Of a stretch of 64,000 nucleotides of DNA, positions 14,695 through 64,000 are shown piece by piece. Below the pieces are notes generated by a model. The model ran no database searches, was not told where the DNA came from, and saw only the letters and a program-made list of their open reading frames with translations. The stretch is from Carettochelys insculpta (lineage: Eukaryota > Chordata > Testudines > Carettochelyidae): assembly GCF_033958435.1 (NCBI RefSeq), contig NC_134137.1:226589501-226653500 (forward strand), read 5' to 3'. Position 1 is the first letter of the stretch. Each line of letters opens with the position of its first letter. A program made the position numbers and the translations under genes.

Positions 14695-17109
14695 CCAGTT
14701 TCTACCATTGATCAGGGACCAATACAAAATCCATGATGAAATGCCATGCATGGTCTGTATCAACCAACAAGGACAGGCTAAATCCTCCTCTTTTTGCTCG
14801 AAAGCTAACATGTTTTGGAATCGGTCCATGTGCAATCAAATCATCACAGTAGCTTATCTTGTGGGAGCTCAGACAGTGACCATGGATACACACAGAAGGC
14901 ACTCCTCTCAAGACTGTGAGTTGGGAATAGACTTCATCATATTTCATCACATATTAGCCATGTCTACATGTGCACGCTACTTCGAAGTAGCGGCACTAAC
15001 TTCGAAATAGCGCCCGTCACGGCTACATGCGTCGGGCGCTATTTCGAAGTTAACTTTGACGTTAGGCGGCGAGACGTCGAAGTCGCTATCCTCATCAGGA
15101 GATGGGGATAGTGCCCTACTTCGACGTTCAACGTCGAAGTAGGGACCATGTAGTCATTGCGCGTGCCGCAACTTCGAAATAGCGGGGTCCGCCATGGCGG
15201 CCATCAGCTGAGGGGTTGAGACACGCTCTCTCTCCAGCCCCTACGGGGCTCTATGGTCACTGTGGGCAGCAGCCCTTAGCCCAGGGCTTCTGGCTGCTGC
15301 TGCGGCAGCTGGGGATCCATGCTGCAGGCACAGGGTCTGCAACCAGTTGTCGGCTCTGTGGATCTTGTGTTGTTTAGTGCAACTGTGTCTGGGAGGGGCC
15401 CTTTAAGGGAGCGGCTTGCTGTTGAGTCTGCCCTGTGATCCTGTCTGCAGCTGTGCCTGGCACCCTTATTTCGATGTGTGCTACTGTGGCATGTAGACGT
15501 TCCCTCGCAGCGCCTATTTCGATGTGGTGCTGCGCAACGTCAATGTTGAACATCGACGTTGCCAGCCCTGGAGGACGTGTAGACGTTATGTCGCTACATT
15601 GAAATAAGCTATTTCGATGTAGGCTTCACGTGTAGACGTAGCCATTGTGGCCATGGCGTACCTCTCAGACAACCCTGTTTGCCATGTCCAGAAACAAGAA
15701 ATGTCCTTAGCTCTATTCCAGTGGTGAGCTGGGTCACTAATTCTTGGGATACTTTTCATCTTCAATGGTCTTCAGGTTTTCTGTATGCTTTCACTTTGAC
15801 TCCTTTAATATCCAAAGTTTGCTCTTAATAAAAAAGGCTAAAGTGACAGTTACGTCAATAGTTCGGACTGTCTCCTTACCTTATACATTTGGGCATTTGT
15901 TCAGCAATCACCCTCCAAGACCACACCTCATCTTTTCTCCCAGGGAGGCATGAAGTTTCTTCACCCTGCTCTTGGAGTTCTTCACTTCTAAGCTTTTTCA
16001 GGGACAATAAAAAGACTGCTATTATTTTGCAGAAAACAGTCTGTGTGCTATACTTCCTTGGAAAAATGGAAAAGATTTGTCTGAAGGCGTGACCTCAAAC
16101 TCTTTTCACCATTAATCTTGTCACTGTCAGATGTAGTGCCTACATCCTAGAACTGAAAGACTCCTCTCTGTTGCTGACTTCCATTATGGTTCACCTGATA
16201 GCCGTCATGGCTTTCCATTCCCTATTGGAGTTCCATATTTGCTCACTTACTGACAATGAGGTTCTTCAGGGGACTTGGAGATCTCTTTCCACTAGTCAAA
16301 TATTCTACTCTGGTTTGAGGCCTTAGACTCGTTCTTCGAATGCTTTGCAAGATCACTGTTTGAATTGATCTCCTGCTTATTCCTCCATTTATTGATGAAA
16401 ACACCATTTCTTATAACCATCACATCAGCTCGGTAAGTTGGAAAATAGGGGCACTTAAGACATACCTTTCACAATATATCTCACAGTTAAAGTCACATTA
16501 TACAACTGCATCCCATGTTTTTAATCAAAAATATCATTAGAGTTCCATATTAATCAATCAATTATTCTGTTCACCTCCTCTTTTTGTACCCTGTATCTCA
16601 CCTGGCTAAGGAAGAAGTGTTTTGTTACACCCACTCAGTGTCAAGAGAACTTTGGCCTTCTACTTTTGCAAAACTGTATCCTTTAGAATGTCTTCAAATT
16701 ATTTGTCTTGATAGCACAGCAATCAAAAGGGTCTATAATCACTGTCCAAAGACTTTCCAAGTTTCTATCTGACTGCACCAGTTGTTGGTATTAATCTGGC
16801 AATCTGCAAGTGCTCTCAGACGTAAGATCTCATTCCACGAGGTCAATTTCTGCTTCAACATCCTTTCTGAAAAAATGTGTGTTATTGAAATTCTTAGATC
16901 TGTGACTGGGACCTCTAAATGTATCTTTGGTGAGCAAGATGCATTAACTCCCAACTCTGCTTCTGATAATGCGTTTGCATTGGCTATATTTTCTTCAGTA
17001 CGGAATTCAACTCTGAATTCCTCTGTTCTTCATCAAGCAGTTCCCCTTAGCCACCTACAGTGGAGTACCATAGCAACACTACTTGAGGAAAAAGAAATGG
17101 TCACTCACC
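14695..17109 (+). mobile_element. Decayed DIRS-like element A (3' half)
   Basis: The sequence aligns by eye to the 3' half of the better preserved DIRS element at 54.8-60.6 kb. At 14695-14950 lies the RNase H end ('caaccaacaaggacaggct', the equivalent of 'NRQGGA'). At 15665-15830 lies the 'DLFATQHNKKCP' region ('ccctgtttgccatgtccaga'). At about 16410-16435, 'aaccatcacatcagctcg' corresponds to the recombinase 'AITSARR' box, and 16640-16760 is the following segment. Gag and most of RT are missing. A MITE is inserted at 14956-15643. The element ends in the linker at about 17092-17130, where the next DIRS element begins. No coding frame survives. Confidence 0.7.
14956..15643. mobile_element. 688-bp MITE with TTCGAA-rich ends
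   Basis: Terminal inverted repeats: left 'agccatgtctacatgtgcac' against the reverse complement of the right end 'ggctacgtctacacgtgaag'. The flanks share ATT (14953-14955 and 15644-15646), consistent with a 3-bp target duplication. Subterminal DNA is packed with 'ttcgaagtag', 'atttcgaa' and 'tttcgatgt' motifs. It interrupts the DIRS-A element. A reverse-oriented copy is at 29102-29797. No transposase is present, so it is non-autonomous. The 3-bp duplication favours a PIF/Harbinger-type origin, but ATT is not the usual TWA site. Confidence 0.75.
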
Positions 17110-20100
17110 CTGTTCAGTAACTGCGGTTCTTCGAGTGGTTGTTCATGTCCATTCCCATAGATGTGTGCCTGTGCTGCATGCTCAATCTTTGGAAGGTTTC
17201 CTCTGGGAAAGGCATCCTCATGGTGCTGTCCCTGCCAGCCTGCTGCCTGCTCAGTTCCTTACCAGCAGTGACAGTCACTAGAGCAACTGATCTCTTGTTT
17301 TGCAGTGATTCCTAGTGTTTCCAGTGTACATAGTTCATACTTTAGCAGTAGTAGTAGTTGTTGTTGTTTCTGTAATTAATAATAAGTTTCAGTTGGGGGG
17401 TTTCTACCCCCTGATTAAATTTCTTCCCCCCACCCACATTGCCAGGGCATGCAGTGGCCCCAGGGGTTTAAGCAGTTTGGGTTGTGCAGCAAGCGCATGC
17501 TCATAGGGATCCACATGTCACTTGTGTAAAGTGCTCAGGAAAGGGCCATTTACAAGACCAGTGCAGCGTTTGCAGGGGCTTTCACCCAAAGACAACAGAA
17601 GAGAGAAACCACTTGTTAAAACTCCATTTGATGGAGTCTGCTTTCAGGCCCGTCACAAGAGTCAGCACCGGCTGCCTTGCTTCACAGAGCACCCATCTCA
17701 TTGCCAGAGGAAAGATGCACATAAGAAGCTCACCACCACTCCCCAGTGCACAAGACTGGATCATCAGTGTGGCACCACTCACAAACCCTGGTCCTGCACA
17801 GAACCCAAAAAAAGTAGACTGGGACTACACGCCAAAGAAAATCAAGCAGGGCTCCAGCATGTTGCATCCTTAGGGCAACCATATATCCCTGTCCCAAATA
17901 CGGGACAGAGAGATATGGGGGCGAGGGTGGCTCCTCCCCCCTCCTCCAAGCCCCGGGAAGCCAGGAAGGAGGCGGCAACATCTGCCCTCCCCAAGCCCCG
18001 GGCTGCTGCAGCCCCCAGCACTCCTGGGAGCCCCGAGGAAATGGCAGGGACAGGGCAGCCACGGCGCTTCACCCCCCGCCTTCTCCGAGCCTCAGAAGCA
18101 GTGGCCAGGCAGCCGCGGTGCTTCCCCCCCCAATCTTCCCCAGGCCTCAGCGACAGGGATGGGGCAACCACAGCGCTTCTTCCTGCCTTCCCTGAGCCCT
18201 GAGGAAGCGGCAGGGATGGAGCAGCCACGGCGCTCCCCCTGCCTGCCTTCTGCCTTCCCTGAGCCTCAGTGGCAGGGACAGGGCAGCTGTAGCTCTTCTC
18301 TCCCACTTTCCCTGAGCCCCAGGGAAGGGGAAAGTAGGCGAACCTGTGGGCTCTGTGCTGTCCAGCCAGCAACTGCACAGCTGCTGGCAGAATATACGGG
18401 ACAATTAGTCCCTTTTCTAAAACAAGTAGGGACACCTTTTTGGCATCCCAACTATGGGACTGTCCCTCCAAAAATGGGTCAGATAGTCACCCCGTGCATT
18501 CTGCGTCAGGACACCTGAGGACTGGCAAGCCAGCCCTGGCAGTATTGACTTTGACCTTGCGGGCCAGGCCATTGAAGCCAGTGTTAGTGGACTCCTGTCA
18601 GAGAGGTGCTGGAGGAAGACTTGGACCTACCTTCAAGACCAGATACTTTTGAAGCTGAATGGGACTTAAATGTTATGAAAGCACAGTCCCCACCCACTCA
18701 TTCCTGAGTGCCGGGTCAGCTGCAGCAGGTGCTCATCCAGGCTGCCAGACCCTCTTTGGAATTTGTGGTGATCCTGGAGGAAGGCAGGGTTGTAGCTAGA
18801 ATCTCCCTCCAGATGGCTTTGGACTTTGCAGATTCTGGAAAAAGAACAACTGCTAAGGCCGTTGACATATAGCATACAGCTCATGGCTGCAAAGCTTGGG
18901 ACTCCCAGCGAAAGTCCAGAATGGGATTCAGGACCTTCCTTTTGACTTAAAGATTTCAGACCTTACAGTATTAAGGACTCATGGACAACTTTCAAATCAC
19001 TGGATAGACATAGGCCAACACCCCTTGAAAAACCATTAAAACCCCAGCCTTCCTCACATTTCTATCTTGGGCTTCCCAGAACGACTATGCCAGCCAAGGT
19101 CAGGGCTCCTCTAAGAAGCCCCACTTCTCCAAACAAACCTCTGAAGGTGCACCCAGTGATGGCTCGCTAGCATAAATCCTGGATCCTACCCCTTCCTTTG
19201 TGAACTGTCTGTCCACTTGTGCTGTCCCTGGGCCCACAATACTTCAGATCACTGGGTCCTGAGCATAACAGAGGTGGGATATTATGTTCACTTCTGTGCT
19301 CTTCCTCCCTACTCCATCCCTCTTCAGGGACCCTTCTCACAAGCAACCCCTTATATAGGAAATACAATCGCTCCTCCCAGTTGGGACAACAGAGAAGGTT
19401 CCTCTGTAGTTCAGGGGCAAGGGATTTTACTCCCAATACATTAAAGTCTTTCATATCTGGAAGTTCTGAGACTGGGAGGTTGCTGGATATTCAAATATTC
19501 TGGATAATAGAGAGGTATACCAAGCACAGCATAACACTAAAGAAAAACAAGATTACGTATTAAGAAACAAACAAAAATGCATGCAGAGTACTTTACTAAC
19601 AACAGTGGTATTTGTAGACTGTTAACTATAGCAAATACAGTATAAGTTTTTGTATTTACTTTCACAAAACTGTATTTATGGAAAACACAACTAAAATTTA
19701 CTTATGGTTAAAATGCTAATTATTTGAGAGCTCCGGATGATAAAATGCCAGATGTGAAAGAGCTTACTGTATTTTCTTATCTGAAGTCCAAGGTCAGGTT
19801 CAGGCTCATCGTAGATCTGCAAAGGCTCAATGTTTGTAAGAAGGCTGAAGTTTCATATAGTCTCCCTCGCCACTATCATTCCTTCCCTGGATCGTGTATC
19901 TCCTTCAGGTTGAAGGACGCTTCCTTATTTATATCAAATGCACAATGGCTCTTGAGAATTGTAGTCAGCGGCCTGCAGGATTAGTTCAGCATGCTATCAT
20001 TTGTACTCTCTACAGCTTCACACATTGTCACAAAGTGCTAGGCAGTTGTGGCAGCCTTCCTTCGCAAATGCCAGGCACAGGTCTTCCCTGTCTGGATGAC

Positions 20101-22592
20101 TGACCTCAATCAGTCAGCTCCTGAGAACAAGTACTGGAACACGTGGTGCTGAACAAGTTGGGACTCATTTTGAATATATCCAAGTCCACTCTGGCCCCAA
20201 CACAAAAAAAGAAAGTTTATCAGGACCTGCCTGGGGACCCAGTTCTGAGAGAGAGCTCCTTACCCGAGACCTGATTCCAAACCATCTAAGGTATCATTGA
20301 CAGTCTTCTGTGGTTCCCAACCACTGTGATAAGAAACTGCACACGGCTTCTGGGCCACATGGCAGGTTGCACATATGCACATATGTCCTGCAGCATGACA
20401 AGTTACATCTTTGTCCCTTACACAGTTCATTGGCAAAGGTCTGCAGACCCAGCTGAAACCCTCTGGACAGGCTGGTTATCCTCCTCCCCTTGAGTTCCTC
20501 ATCTGATGACTACAACCTCGAGTAGTCTGCGCAGGAGTGCCCTTTACCAAGACTCAATCCTCACTGTTGCTAGTTATGGGTGCATCAAAGATAGACCAGG
20601 GAGCACATGCGGGCAGCATTGGGACTCAAGGCCAGCGATGAAAACCAGAGCTGCTGTTGCACATCAACATCAGAGAGCTGAGAGCAGTTTGCCTGGCTTG
20701 CCAGACGTTCCAGGCCCATTATAAGGCTTGTGTGTCTCAGTACTGATGGACAGCACTGTAGGCTAGATGTATACTAAGGAGAAAGTCTATTTCAGGTGTG
20801 CAATTCTAGCAGTGTCGTTAGCATAGCTAGAATCGATGTATCAGGATCTTTCTTCCCTAGTGTAGTCCAGAGCTCAGAAGTCACGTCAACGTCCTTTACT
20901 CCATGCAATAGCTTGGAGTGCAGTGGTCAGGGGCTGAGCCAAAGGAGTTGATTTTGCTGTGTCTTAACCAGACATGGCAAAATTGAACTCCAGAAGATCC
21001 ATCTTCCCCTGCCGATCTTCTCATAAATATAGATTCACTCACAGTGATGTTCTCTAGAAACAGAAAGGGCGGTGCTTGCTCCTCTACCATATGTCAGGAA
21101 GCCCTCCAACTGTGGGACTTCTGTATTACATACCACATGTAAGGCCTTATTCTTACAAGGGACACAGAATAGACTAGCGGACCACCTCAGCTGCTTGTTC
21201 TCTGTTCAACTCTTTTTAGAACCACAGCTGTGGCTCCACAGCAGATGCTTTTATTTTGCTATATACGTATTCCCAGGCTCCCCACTAATACACCTCAAAA
21301 TCAAGTAGGACAAGTCCTGAATTGTCCTCAGAGTGCCTGCATGACCGAGGTAGAACTTCCCCACCTTACTGAACCAATCCGTGGACAGGCCAGTGGTGTT
21401 CCCCAGGCTTCTGGACCTCCTTACACAGGATCATAGCTAGTTACAACACCCCAAACTGGAGTTCCTCCACTCATGGCATGGAAACTCCATGGCTGAACCA
21501 GCTTGAGCTGCTCTGTTTGGAATTGTTAAGGGAAGTAGTTTTGAGAAGCAAGAAACCTTCCACCTGTTTAACATAGAAAGAAATGCTTCTCTATTTGTTC
21601 CCTTCAGAAAGGTTTCCCCCAGCAACAGGCCTCCATTCTCATTGTGCTCAGTCTGTAGGGCTTGTTATATCATTTCTTCATGTTCCCCAGAAAGCCATCT
21701 TGGCCTTCCACCCTGATGTGGCTGACAGACCAGTGTTTGGCAACCCTATGGTGGGCCAGTTTCTTAAGGGCTTAGACTGTATCCCCAAGAGAAGCACCCT
21801 GTTCCTCAGTAGAATCTTTACAAACTTTGAGCCCTAGCAGTCTGTCTCTTATCCTCCCTTTCTTGGAAGATAGTTTTTCTGGTGGCTATAATCTCAGGCA
21901 CAAGGGGCTCTGCACTCTGAACTTACTTCTAAGCCCTCTATACAGTCTTTTATAAAGACAAGTTGCAGCGAAGCCTTCCCCCAACATTCCTACCTAAGGT
22001 AGTCTCTCAATTTCACATGAACCAGGACATGTTTTAGCTGGTATTCTTCCTTTTACCACATACCAACAACAAGGAACTTTACTCTCTGGACCTCAGGCAT
22101 GCACCCGCATTCTACACTGAATGCATGAAAGCATTTCTTAAGTTACTATAGCTCTTCATTGCGATCACTGACAGCATGAAAGGGCTGCCCATCTCCTCCC
22201 TGCTATCTCATCATGTATCAGGATGTACTATAATCTGGGTCAAGGTTTCAGGCCCAGCATTGACTGTACACTCCACAAGAGTGTACATGCCTCCACAGTT
22301 GCATTCCTCACACAATTCCCTATTCAGGACATGTGTGTGGCACAAGAGTATACAAGCCTCCACAGTTGCATTCCTCACACAAGTCCCTATTCAGGACATA
22401 TGTGTGGCAGCAACGGCATCATCCACCAATACCTTTACATTGCATATGCCATTACTCAACAGGCAGGGGATGATATGGCATTTGGCAGCACTGCAATCAG
22501 CAACTTGGTGAACTCTGGCCACTCCTCTGCTTGGGAGTCACCTATTGGAGTGGATGTGAGCAAGCACTCAAAGAAGAAAAAGTTACCTACCT
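17110..22592 (+). mobile_element. Decayed DIRS-like element B (full span)
   Basis: Starts in the linker ('cagtaactgcggttcttcga', 17120-17140) directly after element A. Landmarks follow the order of the 54.8-kb element. The Cys/His-rich Gag N-terminus is at 17484-17640 ('VKCSGKGHLQDQCSVC'). RT remnants are at about 19760-20220 ('RLIVDLQRLNV'). RNase H is at about 20560-20720 (equivalent of 'LHINILELRAV'). The recombinase is at about 21640-22160, where 'GNPMVGQFLKGLD' matches 'AHPIVTRFLKGLV'. It ends at 22535-22592 with a decayed inverted terminal repeat ('gtcacctattggagtggatg') and 'aagaagaaaaagttacctac'. A hAT element (17871-18494) and probably a MITE fragment (about 20760-20880) are inserted. 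All frames are broken. Confidence 0.72.
17871..18494. mobile_element. hAT-type non-autonomous element
   Basis: Ends are TAGGGCAACC at the left and, reversed, CGGGGTGACT at the right. The flanks TGCATCCT (17863-17870) and TGCATTCT (18495-18502) match at 7 of 8 positions, as expected for the 8-bp hAT duplication. Subterminal 'tccctgtcccaaatacggga' recurs at the reversed right end of the copy at 29811-31357. The interior is G+C-rich with repeated 'ggcagggacagggcagc' phrases. It has no transposase and is inserted in the Gag region of DIRS-B. Confidence 0.75.
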
Positions 22593-22822
22593 CTCAACTG
22601 TTGTTCTTTACTAAGTGTTTGTATCCATTCCAAATCCCAAACACTTCCCTTCTGTCAGACTCTTCCAGCAAAAAGGAACTGAGTAGGTGGTGGGTTGGCA
22701 ATGACCTATTTATACCACCATGGGGGTGCCACTCCAGGGGACTCCACAGCTGGTCTGACAAGGAGCACGTCTGTTGGAATGGACACAAGGAATACACCGA
22801 GAAGAACAACAGGTACAAGAGG
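22593..22822. mobile_element. Short DIRS-derived element (~230 bp)
   Basis: It directly follows DIRS-B. The left side is 'ctgttgttctttactaagtg' then 'tgtatccattccaaa'. The right side is 'gttggaatggacacaaggaa' then 'gagaagaacaacaggtac', which is the inverted counterpart. The ends are of the B-type linker seen at the other DIRS junctions. No coding capacity. It corresponds in position and size to the short units at 60625-61212 and to the split one at 41519-43318. Confidence 0.6.
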
Positions 22823-22990
22823 AAGATGTGTCCCTAGGGTTCTCCACTTCCCACTTTCCTTCCCTCCACTTTGGGGTTCTTGGATTTGGAACTTCACAGT
22901 TTGCCTGCCACCTCCCCCCGCACAGCGCCTGCTCCCATTGCTATCTAACAGTAGTGTGGTGCACAAGACTGAGTAATGTCCATGGGCAGG
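22823..22990 (+). repeat. Further DIRS terminal fragment
   Basis: After the short element the sequence reads 'ggaagatgtgtccctagggt' and then 'tctccacttccc', a decayed version of the DIRS inverted terminal repeat (TGTCCCCGTGGGTGCTCCAC). Poorly preserved subterminal sequence follows ('cagtttgcctgcc' against 'cagtttctgcc'). The match fades after about 150 bases, so only a stub of another element is present. Confidence 0.4.
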
Positions 22991-25149
22991 CGAAACATGC
23001 TGCTATGTAAATTCTTTAATCAAGGATGCAGGGAGTGCAAGTACACCTAAATTGAAGCACCCACAGAAGCACAAATCTTGAAGAACCGTAATTCCTGCAC
23101 TGGGTAAATGATAATTTATTTTCCCTTATAAAGTTGACGGTAATAATATAACACACTGTTTGGGTGGTTAATAAAAACACCATTGTACATAGAGCATTGT
23201 GGTTTCTGTGGCACTTTAAAAAGCATCCCTGAGAGTAGTTTGATAAAGTAAATTCGTAGTGGTAACCTGGATAACTAACCTGGCACATTCTTGAGCATAC
23301 GAATCATTCTTAAAATTCAAAAGCTTAATCTTCCATGGAACCTGGCTGACTAGACCTTCCTGATGATAAAATTCATCTGAATTGCAAAAACCTGATGACA
23401 TTTAAATTCCCCTCTTTTCTGCCCCCTTGTCTTCCCATGTAGCTCTGTACTTCTCTTGCTTACTCTTGCCTCTCCTTCCTTTTGATTTATCTGTCAGCCA
23501 CACTCCATCACCCAATTTATGCACAAAAGCGGATATAATTCACTGCTGGCCCAAAGTGGCCTAATCCCAGAAACTCCATTGAGTAGAGACCCAAAGAAGC
23601 AAATTCAGGTGGTACTTCACAGGGGAAGAGAGAGGCACAGGGGAAGGTTGGAACACCTTCTCCCTGCCATGTGGGGTGGGGGCACAAAGCCCCAAGTCTT
23701 GCAGACCAGATCCATGCAAGTTGTGGTCCAGATCCAACCCACAGGCCATAGTTTCCCTGTCCCTGCTTTAGGCTTCTTTTTCTTTGGCAAGAGATGACAG
23801 CTCTTGTGATAATCCAGTATTTCAAACATGGTAATGCTTCTCTCTGGGCTGTGGGTGTTTTCAGTTTCATAGTAAATGCTTTTATAGTTACAAAGCAGAC
23901 ACTTAAGTCTCTCTCTGTATACATGAGTGTGTTCATCTGTGGGTGCTTCTGTGAGTCCACTTGTTCAAAGTTCCTCCTAAACCTGAGAGCTAGGAGCACC
24001 AAATTTGGTATGCAGCTTCCTCCTATCCAAACTTAAACCAAGCTCAGGGTGTGGTTGTGCTTGGAAAATTGGAAGTGCTGGGAATGGGGCTGTTTTCCAG
24101 AATATGGAAAGGGAAGGGGCAGAGGGAGGAGGTAGGCAAAGGGGAGGGACACAGATAGGAGATACTGAAAGTGGCTACTGATGGCAGTTGCAGCACCAAG
24201 AAACTGGACCATCTTGCCTGCCACAAAGACTGGGTAAGTAGCTCCCCTGACCCAAACACAGAGCCTACTCTCCCCATTGAGAGCCTACAAGCTGCAACAG
24301 GGGCTGCTGGATGGGGAGCGGCCACTGGAGGCAAGGGCAGCCTCCAGAGCTTCATGCTGGGGTGCAGTACACTTATTTGGGCAGGTTCTGTTTGGCGGCG
24401 GTGGGAAACAAGTGGCTCCATGCTGCTCTGTGCTCACCTGCAGAGAATTCTCCCTCCCATCCCCCACAGCTTCCATCGGCCACCAATTGGAGATGAGGGG
24501 GCTGGGGCCTGCAGGCAGACAGCAGCACAAGGCAGAGCTTCCCAGTGCTCACAGTGACACAGGTCCAGCTGGGAGGCGGGAAGGAACAGCAGCACATGGA
24601 GCCACCTGCTGCACACACCAGGAAGGGTTGGTTCAGAGCACAGAGTCTTTACAGCTTGCAGCCCAGGGCCCTGGACACAGGGTCTTTAGGGGCCTACCCC
24701 AGGCTGCAGCCTCCAAAGCTCCTTTCTTAATCTTACTTCCAGAGCCAGAGGAGCAGGTCTCTTTTCCCCCAGCTGTGGCAGCTCCCTGGAGTCCCTGCTG
24801 GGATCAGAGGAACATGTCTCCATGCCAGCCACACCAGCGCCCTCCTGGGGCTGGAGGAGTTTGGGACTGTAAGGAGCTGCTGCTGATGCTGCCAAGAGAA
24901 AGGCTTCCCTTCTCCAATCCCAGCATGGAGCTGCCATGGCCGGGGAAAGGCACACTCCTTTGGTCCTAGCAGGGAGCTGCTGCAGCTGGGGAAGAAGTGC
25001 CGCTCCTCGGGCCATAGCAGCTCTGTGCACAGCAGCCCAGAGCTCCTGCATGAGGCTTATTAGGCAGCTGCACAGCTTAGAGACAAGGATATCAATGCCA
25101 GGATACAGAAAGCAACAGCTGCATTCAAGACTCTTCATCCTAAATAGAG
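22991..25149. other. Intron sequence; GC-rich repeats at 24.0-25.1 kb
   Basis: 23000-23500 is AT-rich and unassigned. 23520-23800 ends in 'caacccacaggccatagttt', wording typical of an interspersed reptile repeat. 23900-24050 ('caccaaatttggtatgcagc') is another unnamed repeat. 24040-25130 is G+C-rich with recurring 'gggagctgctgcagctgggg' type phrases and long but meaningless open frames on both strands; it is most likely the core of a DNA transposon or a minisatellite. Confidence 0.4.
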
Positions 25150-29064: not shown

Positions 29065-29101
29065 TTTGTACAGATATAGACTAAGACAGATATCACTCTA
29101 A

Positions 29102-29797: not shown

Positions 29798-29810
29798 TAA
29801 GACTTAAAAA

Positions 29811-41190: not shown

Positions 41191-41518
41191 TAGATCAAGC
41201 AAGAAAGGAAGATTTTTTTTTACCTTGTATCAACTAGAATGCTTCAAAATGTCTGGTCCTGTGATATACTCTGTCGGTATGCATGAGCTCCATGCACCCA
41301 GGATTGGAAATTCTTCAGTAGCAGTGTCTGTTGGTCCATTCTTGTGTCTTTCTCCTCCTCATGCTCTTAACTGAGGGCACAAGGGACACTGAGGAAAGAC
41401 TGTACTGCAAAGAGAGAATCTGAGCAGAGGGGAAGGGACACTCAACATAGATACACATAGCAACAAGACAGGTTTAATAACTCCAATTACTGTAAGGGTG
41501 GTTGAAAAAAAAAAAAAA

Positions 41519-53500: not shown

Positions 53501-53738
53501 TATGGGATGTGTGACTTCTATGGAGCCAACAGGCGGAGTGCCTGCACTAGTCCGGATACCCTCCAGCAAGGGAGCTAGCATTTGACCCTCTGCGAGCCAG
53601 GCATGCCCTTCCAAGGAAGGCAGGCTTCCTGGAGGAAGGGGAAAGGAACAAAACTGGCTCTCTCAACTCTGAACCAACACGAACTAGCAAACGCTCACAA
53701 ACTCAATTGGAACTAGAACTCTCCCCCCTGCGTGCGTA

Positions 53739-53773
53739 CACACACACACACACACTCTCTCTCTCTCTCTCTC
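53739..53773. repeat. (CA)n(CT)n microsatellite
   Basis: About eight CA units are followed by about ten CT units. Simple sequence. Confidence 0.95.
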
Positions 53774-54850
53774 AAGGCACACAAGGCAAATATGCTGTGT
53801 GACCCTGAACATTGTCACTTCTGTGGCTGACTATCACCTCTGTGCAGGGCATGGGGGAGGGTAGGTTGCACATGTGGGCTGAACATACACTGCTAACAAA
53901 GCTCTCCAAATGGGGCTGCCTGGAGTTTACACATACCTGAAGTGGTGCAGCTGTAGCAATGCTACGCAAGGCTGCTCCCTCTTGCTTTTTTCTTTGTGTG
54001 CTGGGCCCTAGCGCTATTCCCCAAGGATAACTCCCAAGCAGTGTGCATTGAAGGTGTGGGAGGGGGGGCATGTGTGGAAGGATGTGCTCTGTATCACAGG
54101 GCACAGGGTTACCAAACTAAGGCAGATGTGTGAGTTAGGGCATGGTGCTTCTAAATGCATGACACAATTTTCTGCTCTACAGCTGTTGGCGGGGGGCAGT
54201 TGGAAGGAGAGGAAAAGGGGCAGAGGCACCTTGTAAGGAAGCTAGCAAGCCAGTCTGAGGTTGGACTGAATGAGCCGAATGATGGACTGTGAGGGAGGGA
54301 GCTTGCCAGATGTTCTAACAGTACGCAACTGGATACTCTTTAGGGCATCTTTCCCTTTCACTGCTAGCGATCAATAATTTCTGAGATGGTCAAATGGGCT
54401 TTGTCCTTTGCAGATAAAAGGGTAGAGCCCTACGTATGTCCAGCTGGCAGCTTCGTCTGTCCTCAGTGGCTACTGTAACACTTACCCAAACTGCCAGCAG
54501 CAGTATGCAAAAAGGCGGTCTCTAAAGTGCAAATGGGTGCTCATTTGCGTATTTGCTCACTGTCAGAGGCTGTTGCCGGCAGAAAAAAAAAGCAGTCTAA
54601 ATGTGGTTCTGCTGGCGAACGCTCCCCCACCCCCCAATCCCTTTGTGGGCTGCCTCTTATTCCTGGAAAAAAAAATCAGGTATAAGAGGCTGCCGACAAA
54701 AGGTGGCAGGCAGGTTTGCTGGCAGAACCACATTTACGCTTTTTTTTCTCCTGTTGGCAGCCTCTGCTGGCAAGTGAATATGCAAATGCGCATCTTTTGC
54801 ATACTGCTGCTGGCAGTCCAGGTCAGTGTAACCATAGCTTCTTCCTCGAG

Positions 54851-54878
54851 TGTCCCTGTGGGTGCTCCACGATAGGTG
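54851..54878 (+). repeat. DIRS 1 left inverted terminal repeat
   Basis: 28 bp matching the reverse complement of 60563-60590 with a single C/T difference at the seventh base. The A-type linker remnant 'gtgtaaccatagcttcttcc' precedes it. Confidence 0.85.
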
Positions 54879-55133
54879 TCGGGCTCGCCCCGGCACCTCA
54901 GATCGGATCTTTCCAGCAGTTTCTGCCAGACCGCGCATGCGCCGGCGCGCACCGCTCCCTTGCGCGCTCCCGGCCATGTGCGCGATCCGGTCCCCGCCAG
55001 TTCCTTCTTAACTGCCATCGGCTGCAGAGAGAATCCGCTCAGGCTGCGGCCAGAGTCAGCGTATTAAGAGTTTTCAGAGGTTTTAGAGTTTCTTTTCAGA
55101 GTTCTTAGTTAGACTGTTTGTTTCTTTATTGCA

Positions 55134-55137
<4 letters not shown>

Positions 55138-55179
<42 letters not shown>

Positions 55180-55185
55180 TATATA
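55138..55185. repeat. (AT)n microsatellite in DIRS leader
   Basis: About twenty AT units lie between the DIRS terminal region and the Gag start. It is probably an expansion within the element's untranslated leader. Confidence 0.95.
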
Positions 55186-55342
55186 AAGTAGAAAGTCTTA
55201 GTAAACGAGAAGGAGGAGCGGAGGCAACCTGGGGACGTGAAGGCCAGTAGGCCTCCTGCCGCGGCAGGCTGGGGTCCGTCAGAGGGGAACAGGAACAGAG
55301 AAGCTGCTAAGTACCCTATTAACAGCTCAAAGACTCACCGCA

Positions 55343-57552
55343 ATGTCCTCTTCAGGATTCAAGAAGTGTGAGTCGTGCCGTGAAGCTATGTCGGCCTCTG
55401 ATGGGCACAGTCAATGTATTAGGTGCCTGGGGGAATCACACGTCACCCAGAAATGCTCCTTTTGTGCAAAGCTCACGGCCAGAGCCAGAAAGGATAGAGA
55501 AATGCGGCTGAAAATGCTGCTGTTTGATAAGGCCCTCCAGCCAGAAGTGCCGGAGAGGCCTCAACCAGAGAGACCCACAGGGCTCCATAAAAGGAAGGCG
55601 GTGTCCCTCACCCCCTCGGTGCAGAAACGGAGGAAGCTCTCTCCAGCCTGATCCCTGCCAGAGGCCACAGTGAGCGGGACGGGCGTAGCCCACAGCCCCC
55701 AGCCGCAGTCACAAACAAGCGGCAGTGCAGCAGCGCACGTGGCAGAGGCTGAGCCTCCGATTGCTAAGTAGCCGGCCCGCGCAGCATTTAGAGCGGCGGC
55801 CAGGCAAGCGCCGGAACCAGTGGCACCGCCGCAAGCGGCACAGACCCCCGCGGTGCCAACGGTGCAGGACCAACAGGCACCAGAGGAGACCACCTGCGCG
55901 GCATCACAGATAAGCGTGCTGAGCGCGGCGCCGACAGCGGGGCCGAGATCCCCGGCACGGGAAGGGGTGGAGCCAGCCCCGCAGGGGAGGGGAAAGGCAG
56001 CAGTGAAAACCCGGCACCGCAGCCCTTCTCTGGACAGGGCTGCAGGGCTGCTCTCAACAAGTCCTCCCCTTATGCTGCGAACACCAACCAGGAGACATGG
56101 GTCTCCCCCAGCCTACCCAGAGCCTCCTTCTCCGTTCCTCCAACCAGCGTCACCATGGCTTGGGCCACCCTCGCCCTATCACAAACCAGTTTCACCATTG
56201 TCTCAGTCATCCAGACGATCTCGCTCCCCCAGACATAGGGGGTATGCACCTCGAGAGTAGTCCAGGTTTCCATCCCAGGAACCGTGCCCATGCTGCCACG
56301 GTCGTCCTTATCACGCTGGGCATAGACACCACAGGCATACACCCAGGGGCAGGTCCCCCTCGACCGTCCAGTACCCCCGCGGGCACTCACGGACGGGGAC
56401 AGAAACACAGTTGTCTCAGGGGGAGTTGATTTTGGAACCCCGAGATTTTCCCTCACAAGCCTCCAGTGAGAGGGTGTACCACCGACAGCAGGACCCTGAG
56501 AGTTGAAGGGAGGTCTACCCTAGTGGTTCCTCCTTGTCCTCCCCTGACGAGGCTACGGCCCCTGGGGATGTTGCCCCCCCAGACGACCTCAAACAGTTTC
56601 AGGAGCTGTTTAAAAGGGTGGCTTTCACGCAAGGCATCCCAACAGCAGAGGTGCAGGAGAAGCACCACAAGCTCCTCAAAAACCTGAGGCCTCCAGCCTC
56701 GTCCAAAATCGCTGTCCCGCTCGATGAAGCAATCATGGAGTCTGCTACCACCATATGGCAGACCCCGGCTTCCGCTCCACCTATAAACAAGAGAGCGGAT
56801 AAGAAATACTTCGTCCCGGCGAAGGGCATGGAGTGCCTGTTTAGTCACCCACAACCAAATTCACTGGTGGTAGAATCGTCTCAGCAGAGATCGAAGACTT
56901 CCCAGTACAAAGCGGGGGGAACAGACAGAGATGCCAAGAAGCTAGAGCTATTCGGCAGAAAGGTATACTCCTCCTCCAACCTGCTGCTGAGAATGGCAAA
57001 TTATGCAGCACATCTAGTGAACCACAATTTCGACAATTACTCCAGGCTTACTTCTCTCATGGATTCACTTCCAGAAGATAAGAAGCCGGTGCTGAAGGCC
57101 ATCGTGCAAGAGGGCTATGCAGCTTCGAGGACAGGAGTCCAGATTGCCCTGGACGTAGCGGACACGGCGGCACGCTCAACGGCTACGGCAGTGGTCATGC
57201 GCAGGGAATCCTGGCTCCAGACATCGGGTATTCCGAGGGATCTGCAGGCAGAAATTGTCGATCTCCCTTTCGACACGCAGAAGTTGTTTGCAGAGTCAAC
57301 TGATTCGGTCCTTCATTCCAGTAAAGACTCAAGAGCTACACTCAGAACCCTGGGTATTTATACCCCTCCATACAGAAAGAAAAAGTATTACCCTCAACAA
57401 AGGCGATACCCGTACCAACCTCAGCGTGCTCAATACCAACGGGGCTATGAGCAAGGGCGGCATCAACAGCAACAACAGTATAGAACTCCTAGGCGACATT
57501 CCCAACAGGGCCGTGCATCCTCGGGGCAGGCCCAAAGGCAACAAGTTTGACG
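55343..57552 (+). pseudogene. gag: DIRS 1 Gag-like ORF (stops inside)
   Basis: One frame runs from ATG 55343 to the stop after 57550 (about 735 codons), interrupted by stops at 55649-55651, 55769-55771, 56258-56260 and 56504-56506. The N-terminus has a Cys/His pattern, 'CESCREA' then 'HSQCIRCLGESH' and 'CSFC', likely zinc-binding. The middle is Pro/Arg/Ser-rich ('SPLSQSSRRSRSPRHRG'). From 56534 the most conserved part reads 'DLKQFQELFKRVAFTQGIP', 'ATTIWQTPASAPPINKRADK', 'FGRKVYSSSNLLLRMANYAA' and 'DTQKLFAESTDSVLHSSKDS', ending in a Tyr/Gln/Arg-rich basic tail ('KKKYYPQQRRYPYQPQR') suited to nucleic-acid binding. It presumably forms the particle that packages the RNA. At least the first stop fits CGA-to-TGA decay. 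Confidence 0.8.
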
Positions 57553-57626
57553 GACAGGTCGAGGGCTGCACTATTACTACCATCGCACAATGTCATCCAC
57601 AATTAATGTTCCATCATTGCCTCTGA

Positions 57627-60521
57627 CCGTTCCACTCACAATGGCAAAAGATCACCACAGACAAATGGGTACTGGAGATCATAGCCATGGGTTACGTGAT
57701 CCCCTTTCAGTCGCTCCCACCACCAAGACCTCCGCCCAGGCCTCATCTCAGGGATGCCTCCCACGAGGCGAAACTCAAGCACGAGGTGGACCACCTTATG
57801 CTTATAGGGGCGGTGGAAAGAGTGCCAGAGTGACTCCAGGTGAAAGGGTTTTATTCACGATACTTCCTCACAGAGAAGAAAACAGGAGGCTGGAGACCCA
57901 TCTTAGATCTTCGAGGCCTCAACCGGTACTTGCGCAAATGACGCTTTCGCATGATCACAGTCGCCTCTATACTCACGGCACTGGACGATGGAGATTGGTT
58001 TGCAGCCCTCGACTTACAAGATGCGTATTTTCATACAACATTCCACCTGGCTCACAGACGTTTTCTCCGGTTTATGGTCGGCAAAGAACATTTCCAATGC
58101 AAGGTTCTGCCGTTCGGCCACTCCTCGGCCCCCAGAGTCTTTACCAAGACCCTGGCAGTGGTGTCAGCCTACCTGCACAGACAGGGGGTATTTATATTCC
58201 CATATCTGGACGACTGCCTACTGAAAGGGGCCTCGAAGACAGAGGTACTACACGTGATACGCAGAACAGCAAACACGTTTTCTTCGCTGGGCCTGGTCAT
58301 CAACCTTGCGAAGTCAAAGATCGACCCCACACAGAACATAGAGTTCATAAGGGCACGCATAAGTTCTATCACAGCAAGGGTTTATCTACCCGACGCTCGC
58401 TTTCGCGCCATCGATTCCCTAGTACAAGTCATTACATACAGCCCCACGGTGCCGGCTTTAATGTGCTTGCAGCTGCTAGGCCACATGGCAGCGGCAACGT
58501 TCATGGTACAGAACGCCAGATTGCATATGCGCAACCTGCAACGTTGGCTGGCGAGCGTCTACAAGCCGGCATCCCACACCGTCCGCAGAGTGGCATCGCC
58601 CACGACAGAGGTGCGCAGATCCTTGCAATGGTGGGTAAACCCCAAGAACATGCTAACAGGGGTACCCTTTCACCAACCACAAATCTCTATTTTTCTCACC
58701 ACTGATGCCTCCCACATAGGGTGGGGAGCACACATTGGCGAAAAGGTGATGCAAGAACTGTGGTCCCCTACGGAACAGTCACTGCATATAAATATACTGG
58801 AGCTCAGAGCAGTGTTCAACGCCTGCAAACACTTGCGAGACCACATACAAGGCAAGGTAGTCGGGATCAATAGAGACAATACCTCCACCATGTTTTATGT
58901 AAATCGACAAGGCGGAGCTTGATCCCGTGCCTTATGTGCGGAAGCAGTCCGGCTGTGGAACTGGTGCATCGCCAACAATATAACGTTGAAAGCCTCGTAC
59001 TTACCAGGCGCTCACAACGTGAAGGCAGACCAGCTGAGCAGGCGCTTTGCACTCACACACGAGTGGCAGATCCGCTCCGATCTGCTACGACCGATCTTTC
59101 ATGCATGGGGATTTCCCCAGATAGACCTGTTTGCCACTCAGCACAACAAGAAGTGCCCCCAATACTGCTCCAGGGCAGGACTGGGGCGGGGGTCCTTGGG
59201 GGATGCGTTCACGATTTCGTGGAAGGGCCCCCTGCTTTATGCGTTTCCCCGCACAGTGCTCATCCACAAGGTCCTGCAGAAAGCCAGGAGGGAGAGAGCC
59301 CGCATGATCCAAGTGGTCCCAACATGGGATCGACAGCAATGGTTCCCCTTGCTTCTGCACATGTCAGATCATCCACCGCTTCCCCTTCCGGTAGCGCCGG
59401 ACCTGCTCACGCAGGCCCAGGGGTCCATAGTGCATCCACACCCCCCGAGGCCTGCGCCTACAAGCGTGGTTAATCCATGGCTCAGCTCCCTAGAAAGTAC
59501 ATGTACAGAGGAAGTAAAACAAGTCCTGGAAAGTAGCCGAAGGATCTCCACCAGGAAGACCTACAAGCAGAAATGGACTCGATTCACTGCATGGTGTTCC
59601 ACCAAGCAGTTAGCTCCCCTTGAGGTGCCTATACGTGTAATACTAGAATACTTACTGGGCCTCAAGAGAGGCGGGCTCTCCCTATCCTCGTTGAAGGTCC
59701 ATCTCGCCGCTATATCGGCATTTTGGCATGAAAAGGAAGGGCCCACGGTGTTTGCCCATCCTATTGTTACCAGGTTCCTGAAGGGGCTGGTAAACCTGTA
59801 CCCCCTTCGGAAACCGCTTCCACCATCGTGGAGCTTGGACCTGGTGCTCAGCGCACTAATGGGACCACCATTTGAACCCTTAGCCACAGTTTCCCTCCGT
59901 CTCCTTAGGATAAAGACAACCTTCCTTCTTGCAATCACATCAGCTCGCAGGGTGAGTGAGCTTGCAGCAGTTATGGCAACGCCGCCCTGCACAGTATTCT
60001 CAAAGGAGGCGGTAACCTTACGGCTGCACCCACCCTTCGTTCCGAAAGTTTCTTCAGAGTTCCATCTTAACAAACCTATAGTTTTACCCACGTTTTACCT
60101 GAAGCCTCATAGCTCCAGCAAGGAAGCATGCCTGCACCTCCTGGACATGAGGAGGGCGTTGGCCTTCTACATAGACAGGACTAAGTCCTTCCGGAAAACG
60201 GACAGACTCCTAGTCTCTCTCGCTCCCAGGTCAAAAGGAGAGGGTCTCTCTTCACAGAGAATCTCAAAACATATCGTGTCCTGCATAAAGATGTGCTACG
60301 AACTTCGAAAAACTCCTTTACTGGCCCCGCCTAGGGCTCACTCCACCAGGGCGGTGGCGGCATCAACAGCCTTTTTCAAGGGCATCACACTAAAAGACAT
60401 CTGCAGAGCGGCGACCTGGTCATCCTATGACACCTTCACCAAGCATTATGCCCGACACCGGGTATTCCAAGAGGATACCCGCCTCTTGACAGCGGTCCTT
60501 TCAGGGGCAAGCTGCACATAA
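57627..60521 (+). pseudogene. pol: DIRS 1 pol: RT-RNase H-tyrosine recombinase
   Basis: One frame (+1 relative to Gag) encodes, in order, the RT start 'DKWVLEIIAMGYVIP' and RT core 'ALDLQDAYFH' with catalytic YLDD at 58203-58214. RNase H follows ('FLTTDASHIGWGAHIG', 'NILELRAVFNACKHLR', 'DNTSTMFYVNRQGG', 'NVKADQLSRRF'). Next is a segment 'DLFATQHNKKCPQY' with 'LLYAFPRTVLIHKVLQKARR', where DIRS elements carry a Dam-methylase-like domain. Last is the tyrosine recombinase, in the 58986-60521 frame, with SARRVSEL (Arg322), HSTR (His452, Arg455) and HYARH (Tyr488). Stops at 57624-57626, 57831-57833, 57939-57941 and 58920-58922 interrupt it, but the whole recombinase is open. It differs from LTR-element pol by having no protease or DDE integrase. 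Confidence 0.88.
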
Positions 60522-60562
60522 CCTGATTACCCACCTCCTTTCTTGGGTTGCTGCTGGGTAGT

Positions 60563-60590
60563 CACCTATCGTGGAGCACCCACGGGGACA
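60563..60590 (+). repeat. DIRS 1 right inverted terminal repeat
   Basis: Inverted partner of 54851-54878. It is followed by 'catctcaaagaaagagaagt' and the A|B linker to the next short element. Confidence 0.85.
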
Positions 60591-60624
60591 CATCTCAAAG
60601 AAAGAGAAGTTACTCACTGTAGTA

Positions 60625-60914
60625 ATGGTGGTTCTTTGAGATGTGTCCCCGTGGGTGCTCTACGTTAGGTGTTGGGCTCGCCCCGGCGCCGCAGGTCGGA
60701 TCTTCCAAGCGGTTTCTGCTGGACCGCGCATGCGCCGGTGCACGCTGCTCCCTTGCGCGCTCCCGGCCACGTGCGCGATCCGGTCCCCACCAGTTCCTTG
60801 ACGAACCGCCTCGGATGCTCCTGCAAAATACTAAACAGGGATCCGAAGCGGGGAGGATGGGCGGGTGGTGGAGCACCCACGGGGACACATCTCGAAGAAC
60901 CACCGTTACTACGG
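60625..60914. mobile_element. Short DIRS derivative, unit 1 of 2
   Basis: The core (60643-60890) starts with the DIRS terminal repeat 'gtgtccccgtgggtgctcta' and ends with its inverse 'gagcacccacggggacac'. The first ~160 bases copy the DIRS 5' end ('ggtcggatcttccaagcggt', 'gaccgcgcatgcgcc', 'cgatccggtccccaccagtt'). The last ~70 bases before the right repeat ('gcaaaatactaaacaggga') are not found in DIRS 1. No coding frame. It looks like an internally deleted, non-autonomous passenger. The next unit repeats it with a period of exactly 297 bases. Confidence 0.8.
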
Positions 60915-61212
60915 TGAGTAACTTCTCTTTCTTCTTCGAGTGTCCCCGTGGGTGCTCCACGTTAGGTGTCGGGCTCGCCCCGGCACCGCAGGTCGGATCT
61001 TCCAAGCGGTTTCTGCCGGACCGCGCATGCGCTGGTGCACGCCGCTCCCTTGCGCGCTCCCGGCCACGTGCGCGATCCGGTCCCCACCAGTTCTTTGACC
61101 AACCGCCTCGGATGCTCCTGCAAAATACTAAACAGGGATCTGAAGCAGGGAGGATGGGCGGGTGCTGGAGCACCCACGGGGACACATCTCAAAGCACCAC
61201 CGTTACTACGGT
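60915..61212. mobile_element. Short DIRS derivative, unit 2 of 2
   Basis: Second 297-bp unit in the same orientation as the first. I count 13 differences in 297 positions (about 96% identity), most of them C/T or G/A at CpG sites. Its left flank is of the A type ('gagtaacttctctttcttct') and its right flank of the B type ('caccaccgttactacgg'). The inverted DIRS element follows immediately at 61237. Confidence 0.8.
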
Positions 61213-64000
61213 GAGTAACTTCTCTTTCTTCTTCGAGTGTCCCCGTGGGTGCTCCACGTTAGGTGACTACCCAGCAGTAACCCAAAATAGGAGGTGGGTA
61301 ATCGGATCATGTGCAGCTTGTCCCCGAGAGGATTGCTGTCGAGAGACGGGTATCCTCTTGGAATACCCGGTGTAGGGCATAATGCTTGGCAAAGGTGTCA
61401 TAGGATGACCATGTCGCCGCTCTGCAGATGTCTTTTAGCGCAATGCCCTTGAAAAAGGCTGTTGATGCCGCCACCGCCCTAGTGGAGTGAGCCCTGGGCG
61501 TGGCCAGTAAAGGAGTCTTTTTGAGTTCGTAGCACATTTTTATGCAGGATACGATGTGCTTCGAGATTCTCTGCGAAGAGAGACCTTCTCCTTTTGATTT
61601 GGGAGCGAGAGAGACTAGGAGTCTATCCGTTTTCCGGAAGGACTTAGTCCTGTCTATATAGAAAGCCAGCACCCTCCTCACGTCCAGGAGGTGTAGGCGC
61701 GCCTCTTTGTTGGAGTTATGAGGCTTTGGATAACGAGGGTAAAACTATAGGTTTGTTAATACGAAACTCTGAAGAAACTTTGGGAACAAAGGCTGGATGC
61801 AGCTGTAAGGTTACCGCCTCCTTGGAAATTACTGTGCAGGGTGGTGTTGCCATGACTGCCGCAAGCTCGCTCACCCTGCGAGCTGACGTGATTGCAAGAA
61901 GGAAGGTCGTCTTTATCGTAAGGAGACGGAGGGAAACCATGGCTAAGGGTTCAAACGGTGGTCCCGTTACCGCATTAAGCACCAGGCCCAAGCTCCACGA
62001 AGGTGGAAGTGGTTTCCGAGGGGGGTATAGGTTTACCAGCCCTTTGAGGAACCTGGTAACCATGGGATGGGCAAACACCGTGTGCCCTTCCTCTTCATGT
62101 CTGAAAGCCGATATAGTGACAAGGTGGACCGTTCAACGAGGATAGGGAGAGTCCGCCTCTCTTGAGGTCCAGTAAATACTCTAGTATTACAGGTATATGT
62201 GCAGCAAGGGGGCTAATTGCTTGGTAGAACACCATGCAGTGAATCGAGTCCATTTTTGCTTATAGGGCTTCCTGGTGGAAGTCCTCCTGCTACTTTCTAG
62301 GACTTGTTGCACTCCCTCCGTACACGTACTCTCTAGGGAACTGAGCCATGGATTAACCATGCTTGCAGTCGCAGACCTCAGGGGTGTGGATGCACTATGG
62401 ACCCCTGGGCTGCGTAAGCAGATCCGGCACCACGGGGAGGGGCATCGGTGGACGGTCCGACATGCGCAGGAGTAAGGGGAACCATTGCTGTTGATCCCAC
62501 GTTGGGACTACTAGGATCATTCGGGCTCTCTCTCTCCTGGCTTTCTGCAAGACATTGTGGAAAAGCACTGTGGGAGTAAAGGCGTAGAGCAGGGGGCCCC
62601 TCCACGAGATCGCGAATGCATCCCCCAGGGACCCCCGTCCCAGTCCTGCCCTGGAGCCGTATTGTGGGCACTTCTTGTTGTGTTGAGTGGCAAACAGGTC
62701 TACCTGGGGAAAACCCCATGCGTGAAAAATCGGTCGTAGCAGATCGGAACGGATCTGCCACTCGTGTGAGAGTGTGAAGCGCCTGCTCAGCTGGTCTGCC
62801 TTCACATTGAGAGCGCCTGGTAAATACGAGGCTTTCAACGTTATATTTTTGGCGATGCACCAGTTCCACAATCGGACTGCTTCCGCACATAAGGCACGGA
62901 ACCGAGCTCCTCCTTGTCGATTTATATAAAACATGGTGGAGGTATTGTCTGTACTGATCCCGACTACTTGCCTTGTATATGGTCTCGAAAGTGTTTGCAG
63001 GCGTTGAACACTGCTCTGAGCTCCAGTATATTTATGTGCAGTGACTGTTCCGTGAAGGACCACAGTCTTTGCGTCACCTTTTCGCCCATGTGTGCTCCCC
63101 ACCTTATGTGGGAGGCGTCAGTAGTGAGAAAAACAGATATTTGTGGTTGGTGAAAGGGCACACCTGTTAGCATGTTCTTGGGGTTCACCCACCATTGCAG
63201 AGATCTGCGCACCTCTGTCGTGGGCAACACCACCCTGTGGACAGTGCGTGCTGCCGGTTTGTAGACGCTCGCCAGCCAGTGCTGCGCCTATGCAATCGGG
63301 CATTCTGTACCACAAACGTTGCTGCTGCCATGTGGCCCAGCAGCTGTAAGCACGTCAGAACTGGCCCCGTAGGGCTGAATGTGATGACTTGCACGAGGGA
63401 ACCAATGGCGCGAAAGCGGGCATCTGGTAGATAAACCCTTGCTGTGATGGAATTTATACGTGCCCCTATGAACTCTATGTCCTGTGCGGGGTCTATCTTT
63501 GATTTTGCCAGATTGATGACCAGGCCCAGCGAAGAGAACGTGTCTGCTGTGACGCATATCATGCAAAGTACCTCCTCCTTTGAGGCCGCTTTCAGTAGGC
63601 AGTCTTTTTTTTTTTTGTTTTTTTTTTTTTCAGATATGGGAATATAAACACCCCCTGTCTGTGCAGGTAGGCTGACACCACTGCCAAGGTCTTGGTGAAG
63701 ACTCTGGGGGCTGAGGAGAGGCCGAACGGCAGAACCTTGTACTGAAAATGTTCGTTGCCTACCATAACCCGGAGAAAACGCCTGAGAGCCGGGTGAATAG
63801 TTATGTGAAATACGCATCTTGTAAGTCGAGGGCTGTGAACCAATCTCCATCGTCCAGTGCCGTAAGTATAGAGGCAACTGTGATCATCCGAAAGCGTTGC
63901 TTGCGCAAGTACCGGTTGGGGTCTCGAAGATCTAGGATGGGCCTCCAGCCTCCTGTCTTTTTCTCTGTGAGGAAGTATCTTGAGTAGAACCCTTTCCCTC
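61213..64000 (-). mobile_element. DIRS-like element 2, inverted, cut by window edge
   Basis: The element begins with the terminal repeat at 61237 ('gtgtccccgtgggtgctcca') and reads into the window end in antisense. Recombinase end (61307-61681): 'HSTR' and 'HYALH' are intact. Recombinase middle (61716-62078): 'SARRVSEL' is intact but separated by a frameshift near 61690. RNase H and Dam-like region (62395-63233): 'DNTSTMFYINRQGGARF' is uninterrupted where DIRS 1 has a stop. RT (63185-64000): the YLDD site is destroyed by a T/A-rich insert at 63605-63630. The RT N-terminus and Gag lie outside the window. It is inactive. With DIRS 1 it forms inverted arms of at least 2.7 kb. Confidence 0.88.
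63605..63630. repeat. Poly-A/T tract replacing the RT active site
   Basis: Twelve T, one G and thirteen T on the + strand stand where DIRS 1 has three bases (GTC, antisense of the first Asp codon of YLDD). The flanks 'ggcagtc' and 'cagatatggg' are otherwise intact. The net gain of 23 bases shifts the RT frame. Confidence 0.85.

Follow-up and report, generated by a model that had tools for sequence, protein, structure and literature searches.

In a 64,000-nucleotide stretch of the genome of the turtle Carettochelys insculpta (assembly GCF_033958435.1; contig NC_134137.1, labelled G000:C1 here, positions 226589501-226653500), referred to below as the window, DIRS1-like tyrosine-recombinase retrotransposons lie in three places that the initial annotation described as chains sharing one joint architecture. 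We propose, with a probability of about 85%, that these chains are explained by the anatomy of the elements together with insertion of one element into another at a boundary of their own sequence, GG^TTCTTCGAG (^, point of insertion), where the inverted terminal repeat (ITR) meets the right extension, in a fixed direction. The anatomy, the sites, the direction and the two-sided nesting are read directly from the DNA. In chain 1, an element of another DIRS family (element B) lies within element A; in chain 3, DIRS- (subfamily II) lies within DIRS+ (subfamily I). The nested copies resemble regular chains because each insertion leaves sequence at its joints that looks like the linker between terminal variants A and B (A|B) by which the chains had been recognized.

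The A|B linker as part of each element

A profile of ITR ends was built from the 17 ends visible in the window and is therefore circular, in that it recovers the same ends; it returned those 17 and none further at E<0.9. Fourteen of them face one another and form seven linkers (17.11, 22.58, 22.82, 43.31, 60.61, 60.91 and 61.21 kb), and the three unpaired ones are a left end at 54.83 kb, beside a repeat resembling a miniature inverted-repeat transposable element (MITE), and right ends at 41.53 and 23.10 kb with no ITR beyond. ITR-bearing DIRS ends are thus present at all three places. Chain 2 is one ordinary element. The initial annotation had further stated that every joint pairs A with B. 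Six of the seven linkers do read A|B, and A|A and B|B are both absent, but decay prevents a call for the A side at 22.82 kb, and the literal A string is confined to chain 3 (three sites with at most two mismatches) and degenerate in chains 1 and 2.

In the published layout of DIRS1-like elements (left ITR, open reading frames (ORFs), left and right internal complementary regions (lICR and rICR, together the ICR), right ITR and right extension), the two ICR parts are the complements of the left and right ends and adjoin each other at a circular junction of 3 bp (PMC3266345). The A|B linker is a fixed element sequence of about 62 nt, in which A is the outer and B the inner part of the right-extension/rICR sequence, and it is found twice per element, in the ICR and, inverted, at the right end. 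In DIRS+, the left terminus and the lICR agree at 40/50 positions, and in DIRS- the rICR and the right terminus do so at 58/61; the values are 37/49 for the rICR part of element A against the right end at 23.05-23.12 kb, 36/50 and 39/54 for the ICR/terminus comparisons of element B, and 43/58 for the chain 2 rICR against its right terminus, and 0/300 random windows were as good in these elements. Three cross-element ITR comparisons were equalled by 1 to 4 of 300 random windows and given no weight.

We then turned to the 'short units' that the initial annotation had listed in the chains and sampled 39 copies from the 2.18-Gb genome in addition to the two in the window (at least 41 full-length places, with the best 40 of 4157 candidates scored). 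The spacer side adjoins the 3′ end of a DIRS body in 39/39 copies, which rules out separate mini-elements: a 'short unit' is really the spacer and right ITR of an element. All 39 copies end in AAAGAGAAGTTACTCAC..GTAGTAAC..GGTTCTTCGAG, some with substitutions or small gaps, and a 62-nt consensus is common to their rICR and right terminus; as the query held the ICR-side linker and not the terminal one, only the terminal linker is an independent finding. The outermost AAA is retained in 34/39 copies, and the following base is unconserved (A17 G9 T8 C4 among the 38 read). On the terminus side, 38/39 copies match none of the DIRS parts in the comparison library, which lacked other DIRS families, over the adjacent 1.5 kb; the remaining copy, L042 (L-numbers denote stretches taken from elsewhere in the turtle genome), lies within a DIRS gag-region. 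ICR copies with at most two mismatches number 4111 genome-wide, against 0 for a reversed-pattern control.

The linker is consequently no special joint, since solitary copies end in it too, an outcome that the initial annotation had named as one that would refute its reading. A lies beside B, and never A beside A or B beside B, because the two are adjacent parts of one sequence; with the linker fixed in every copy, the A-with-B rule says nothing about targeting. Three of the paired linkers in the window (22.58, 43.31 and 61.21 kb) are intrinsic ICRs and that at 60.91 kb is a tandem-duplicated copy, and the remaining three derive from the two nested insertions in chains 1 and 3. Two candidate circle-junction triplets, GTT/AAC and later AAG, were dropped, genome right ends being conserved out to AAA, as was a GTTACT..AGTAAC palindrome as recombinase core, its self-complementarity being weak in several linkers. 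As a test of ICR templating, the ICR and right end were compared within copies; they have 77 mismatches, fewer than the mean of 83.1 under permutation (P=0.02), but the difference is weak and confounded by subfamilies.

Probable self-insertion at one motif and in one direction

Both nested insertions of the window lie at GG^TTCTTCGAG, which is present in the ICR as well as where the terminal repeat passes into the right extension. The signature of this motif followed by an incoming right end occurs at 19 sites in the genome, all in one orientation, whereas a reversed-pattern control gave 0. The chain 3 joint (60603..60664) is among the 19; chain 1, involving the other family, is an additional case outside that count. 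A genome search for opposite-orientation joints with own-family right-extension sequence only also gave 0, for which the fair comparison is the 7 own-family cases rather than all 19. The inserted element points the same way with respect to the motif in every case read.

An expectation for such joints was drawn from the host flanks of the elements (19 left flanks, left ends being readable in 19/20 taken, and 39 right flanks). The base before the element is G or C in 17/19 left flanks; in the right flanks T occupies each of the first two positions in 37/39 and C/T the fourth in 35/39. The resulting rule, G/C|TT N C/T, whose TT may belong to the element itself, is one to which the GG^TTCTTCGAG boundary conforms. 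Motif-like sites number 20124 genome-wide (control, 2060). On the presumption of equal site use, an assumed GC content of 45% and similar count sensitivity, 4111 insertions would yield 0.46 at own-family motifs; for all motif-like sites the expectation is 1.00-1.12, against the 19 seen. Element anatomy alone, with the nested copies as ordinary random insertions, would fit the three of seven linkers that are ICRs and the one that is a duplicate, the terminal position of the linker in 39/39 sampled copies and the absence of all 39 from the motif. It does not fit a set of 19 joints that all fall on a single position in the sequence of the elements themselves, where the short target rule predicts about one, nor the lack of any in reverse orientation, and we regard this reading, already weakened by the joint counts, as unlikely.

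A joint-spanning query (best 40 of 4193 candidates scored) gave three further near-full-length matches, L063, L065 and L067 with L068. In the last of these, one element is nested in another, both joints are clear and the empty site reads GTAACTATGG^TTCTTCGAGATG. Across the 19 joints, the left neighbour is an own-family rICR in four (L068, L070, L073 and L086), a right terminus in one (L069), and a body running directly into an ITR core in two (the window and L081). The far side was examined at 8 of the 19 joint loci, and the far-side joint was found at six of them (L087, L089, L090 and L092, by eye, with L092 least clear; L009; L067).

Several points weigh against insertion at the motif as the explanation. 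At 7/19 joints (L072, L074, L076-L079 and L084) the left match to a DIRS end is weak, above the 95% level of the null and below its maximum, this null having been drawn from the window, which itself contains DIRS; for L079, two analyses conflict on the kind of left neighbour. Five joints (L075, L080, L082, L083 and L085) have no assignable left neighbour, and predicted far joints were not found at two of the eight loci (L088 and L091). The expected number would be higher if the true target rule were longer. Self-insertion at the motif is rare: the 39 sampled copies all lie elsewhere, one of them within another DIRS body. In the window itself, the right joint of chain 1 is decayed and about 10-15 nt short (by eye), and chain 3 requires the extra loss of one 297-bp segment in DIRS+. 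Finally, the activity of the recombinase is taken from the published model. The suggestion in the initial annotation that the elements' own ends form a preferred target therefore holds in part: the 19 joints and the absence of reversed ones speak for it, but such insertions are rare and the A-with-B rule lends it no evidence.

Some loci show other arrangements. L063 and L065 were ruled out as nested pairs, as their predicted far ends (L064 and L066) hold no DIRS part; they are single elements with a flipped segment. In these orientation isomers (L063:256-585; L065, reverse complement, 232-558), the spacer and right ITR are inverted between the ICR and the right extension. L068:214-841 holds two right-end segments in a row, tandem-like, which we read as belonging to the inserted element and then to its resident. 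At L071, two elements of the same direction follow one another head to tail, at a left terminus. At L026 (+1546 from the right-end segment) and in the left flank of L042, DIRS elements are apparently nested in DIRS bodies, not in an ICR.

Under the published model, the cDNA circle would be closed over the ICR (lICR-AAA-rICR, the complement of the joined ends), and the recombinase would integrate the circle junction at a short target in the host without target duplication. The elements' own boundary GG^TTCTTCGAG, in the rICR and the right terminus, fits the host rule and bears insertions in chains 1 and 3 and at other loci. The left end of the element, TTCTTCTTCGAG, resembles the target TTCTTCGAG, which may account for the preference and the direction. 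Unequal exchange between the repeated ITR cores would duplicate or delete the 297-bp right-end segment. Somewhat short of an even chance is a broader proposal, that the recombinase uses the circle-junction-like GG^TTCTTCGAG as a preferred, direction-locked landing pad across families, that old copies dock younger ones, and that the right-end segment can flip, as in L063 and L065.

Nested and solitary elements in the window

Element A (Table 1) stops at the breakpoint GG^TTC within its rICR, and the left joint of element B, which has the same direction, reads GCGG^TTCTTCGAG. The reconstructed empty sites speak for the nesting in both chains. Joining 17133-17135 to 22824-22826 restores a gapless chain 1 ICR that scores 101 against the ICR of DIRS- (flanks alone, 67 and 39). 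Against the chain 2 ICR, the best join, 17143 to 22825, scores 115 (flanks alone, 55 and 64), compared with maxima of 101 for random left flanks (99% at 80) and 74 for random right flanks; against the ICR of element B itself, the best join of these flanks reaches only 64. The piece beyond (22.82-23.10 kb), taken for a stub in the initial annotation, is most plausibly the right end of the element at 14.7-17.1 kb, cut off from it by the inserted 17.1-22.8 kb element; both ends of this piece match the chain 2 right-end segment colinearly (BLAST). By tblastn, element A has tyrosine recombinase (YR) matches at 16141-16884 (+), and element B has gag at 18768, reverse transcriptase (RT) at 19991 and YR at 21261-22445, all +, with its own ICR at ~22548-22640 followed by a right ITR and a decayed right extension. 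Another repeat, which lies inside element A (14956-15589), forms a 93% inverted pair with a copy at 29179-29797.

The left joint of chain 3 reads CATCTCAAAGAA^AGAGAAGTTACTC. Past the window, DIRS- ends in CTCGAAGAAGAA at L009:3340, followed by CCATCGTTACTACGGTGAGTAACTTCTCTTT, the right extension of DIRS+, and then by host sequence; once joined, the flanks agree with the right terminus at 61/64 positions. DIRS- is opposite in direction to DIRS+ because the motif is inverted at the right terminus. DIRS+ is without its own 297-bp spacer and right ITR, and its lICR core (60563-60591) directly abuts the end of its right terminus. DIRS- therefore inserted at the motif of the DIRS+ right terminus, with the loss of one 297-bp segment in addition. 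Nesting at the triplet of an intact DIRS+ ICR was ruled out, as the far side (L009) is right extension and host, not rICR and spacer. Over the last ~950 body bases, the mean identity to 37 genome copies is 93.6% for DIRS- and 86.7% for DIRS+. The two 'short units' of chain 3 average 94.5 and 93.2% to 39 genome copies, which had been picked by likeness to the first of them; as these values are close to that of DIRS-, both units belong to it. They form a 297-bp tandem duplication, which spans 60.57-61.27 kb in one analysis and comprises two full units at 60.64-61.24 kb in another.

Chains of this kind might also have been built without a recombinase, by homologous recombination or gene conversion between the ITRs and ICRs of neighbours. 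ITR cores are common to both, and the 297-bp duplication and the segment lost from DIRS+ resemble unequal exchange; the inversions in L063 and L065 could come about likewise. However, the breaks coincide with the AA of the circle junction, the element added has its own two termini, and joints connect DIRS families of little ITR similarity (chain 1; L077 with L092, by eye), which makes this origin improbable. The initial annotation had also raised the idea of circles that join first (circle junction with ICR) and then insert as a co-integrate. The topology and products would be those of sequential nesting, and of the outer ends of chain 3 one is a true left end and the other a true right end. 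Partners should then match in age and family, yet chain 1 joins two families, and DIRS+ and DIRS-, of different subfamilies, are 12.6% divergent over 2774 aligned bases; we give this route very little credence.

The single element of chain 2 has tblastn matches to gag (47008-46730), RT (45976-45561) and YR (from 44967), all minus, and its reading as one element also draws on repeat families D8 and D9. Its right-end segment is interrupted by a copy resembling a long interspersed nuclear element (LINE; ~41.67-43.17 kb, bounds by eye).

Table 1. Positions of DIRS elements and their parts in the window
Feature	Position	Strand	Content
Element A, 5′-truncated	14692..17126	+	RNase H-like (by eye) to YR remnants, body 3′ end, lICR, start of rICR
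Element B, other DIRS family, nested in the ICR of element A	17127..22811	+	Left terminus to decayed right extension
Displaced right end of element A	22824..23110	+	rICR remainder, spacer, right ITR, right extension
Chain 2 element	41510..47008	-	Right terminus 41.51-41.58 kb, ICR 43.26-43.39 kb, outermost protein match 47008, left end not found
DIRS+, subfamily I, resident	54833..60602	+	Right terminus cut at CAAAGAA^ after 60602
DIRS-, subfamily II, nested, opposite orientation	60603..64000, on to L009:3340 (G000:C1:226656840)	-	
Two tandem spacer and right ITR copies of DIRS-, 297-bp period	60603..61218	-	
A|B linker at the DIRS+/DIRS- joint	60603..60664	+	DIRS- right extension and ITR end; 58/61 against DIRS- rICR
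ICR of DIRS- (lICR, triplet, rICR), an A|B linker	61166..61265	-	Same arrangement next to the body 3′ end in 39/39 genome copies

Identity and published relatives

Stop-to-stop ORFs of DIRS+ match LAP2alpha (56507-57547), RVT_1 (57942-58919; 57 bits against a cut-off of 29.6) and YR (58923-60518). Slightly under its cut-off of 24.8 is RT_RNaseH (23.2 bits); the phage-integrase N-terminal domain (Pfam Phage_int_SAM_4) in the YR ORF scores 18.9 bits (cut-off 27), and a Dam methyltransferase match is likewise sub-threshold (15.4 bits; cut-off 28.1). The ORFs contain the RT motif YLDD and the recombinase strings HSTR and RRVSEL, of which HSTR is listed among YR motifs (PMC3266345), and some homologues of the recombinase ORF are annotated as Tyr recombinase or core-binding domain-containing. 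A tyrosine recombinase thus takes the place of an integrase, judged by these strings and homologue names, the Pfam match being sub-threshold. A LAP2alpha domain is likewise described for Xenopus DIRS gag (PMC9210276).

The termini agree with this assignment. ITRs are present (DIRS+ left ITR against the reverse complement of the DIRS- right ITR, 166/189; element B pair, 132/210), the right extension continues 31 nt past the ITR and is complementary to the rICR only, and the ICR, close to the 3′ end, is complementary to both ends with a short circular junction. Target-site duplication is absent: 16/19 flank pairs share no repeat of at least 3 bases, and the other three share 3, 4 and 5. The split direct repeats of PAT/Ngaro elements (A1..B1-A2-B2, with no ITRs) were ruled out, as the right-end segment is oriented like a left end copied in inverse in 39/39 copies and is flipped in two loci besides, L063 and L065; the direct repeat D1 of the window is accounted for by an adjacent opposite-strand element. 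No relatives were found among the viral and genome contigs searched.

AcDIRS1 and AcDIRS2 of Anolis, also a sauropsid, have ITRs of 26+140/136 bp, right extensions of 26/28, ICRs of 40-58/39-60 and junctions AAG/AAA (PMC3266345, Table 3). The turtle elements are alike, with ITRs of ~170, a right extension of 31, an lICR of 41, an rICR of ~62 and the junction AAA, and share the size of ~5.9 kb and the order gag-RT-RNase H-YR. Unlike AcDIRS1/AcDIRS2, they have a spacer of ~65-70 bp between the rICR and right ITR, a right-end segment that is inverted at two loci, and nested insertions mapped to one motif.

Self-insertion of DIRS elements is already known. Dictyostelium DIRS-1 is stated to insert preferentially into DIRS-1 'without apparent sequence preference' (PMC5633606), in a source that also regards the experimental proof of the DIRS replication model as incomplete; Cappello 1984 is the report of this self-insertion cited in that source and in PMC5006619. 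A comparable own-copy preference is stated in PMC5006619 and PMC5941688, and a further published account, as far as its accessible text goes, shares this preference and gives neither site nor orientation. As described in these sources, DIRS-1 resembles the turtle elements in entering existing DIRS copies, ascribed to the recombinase, and differs in its strong preference and lack of sequence preference, whereas turtle self-insertion is rare (19 joints against 4111 ICRs) but lies at one motif and in one orientation. A literature search by title and start of abstract, with most subscription papers outside its coverage, found neither a mapping of such insertions to the ICR nor an account of the exact site and orientation reported here. 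A vertebrate genome with thousands of copies is a natural record of the target rule, the exact self-target, the orientation and both joints, and yields a testable statement on what a DIRS recombinase recognizes and how nested DIRS arrays begin. It also carries a warning for annotation, as A|B linkers, 'short units' and 297-bp units all belong to a single element.

Among the other repeats of the window, a short one with 22-bp inverted ends (CTGCCAGCAGCAGTATGCAAAA; 54491-54816) adjoins the left end of DIRS+. Three reverse-transcriptase copies that we take to be LINE-like lie at 1347-2558, 12037-13278 and 51318-53052 and are 81-95% alike in repeat blocks.

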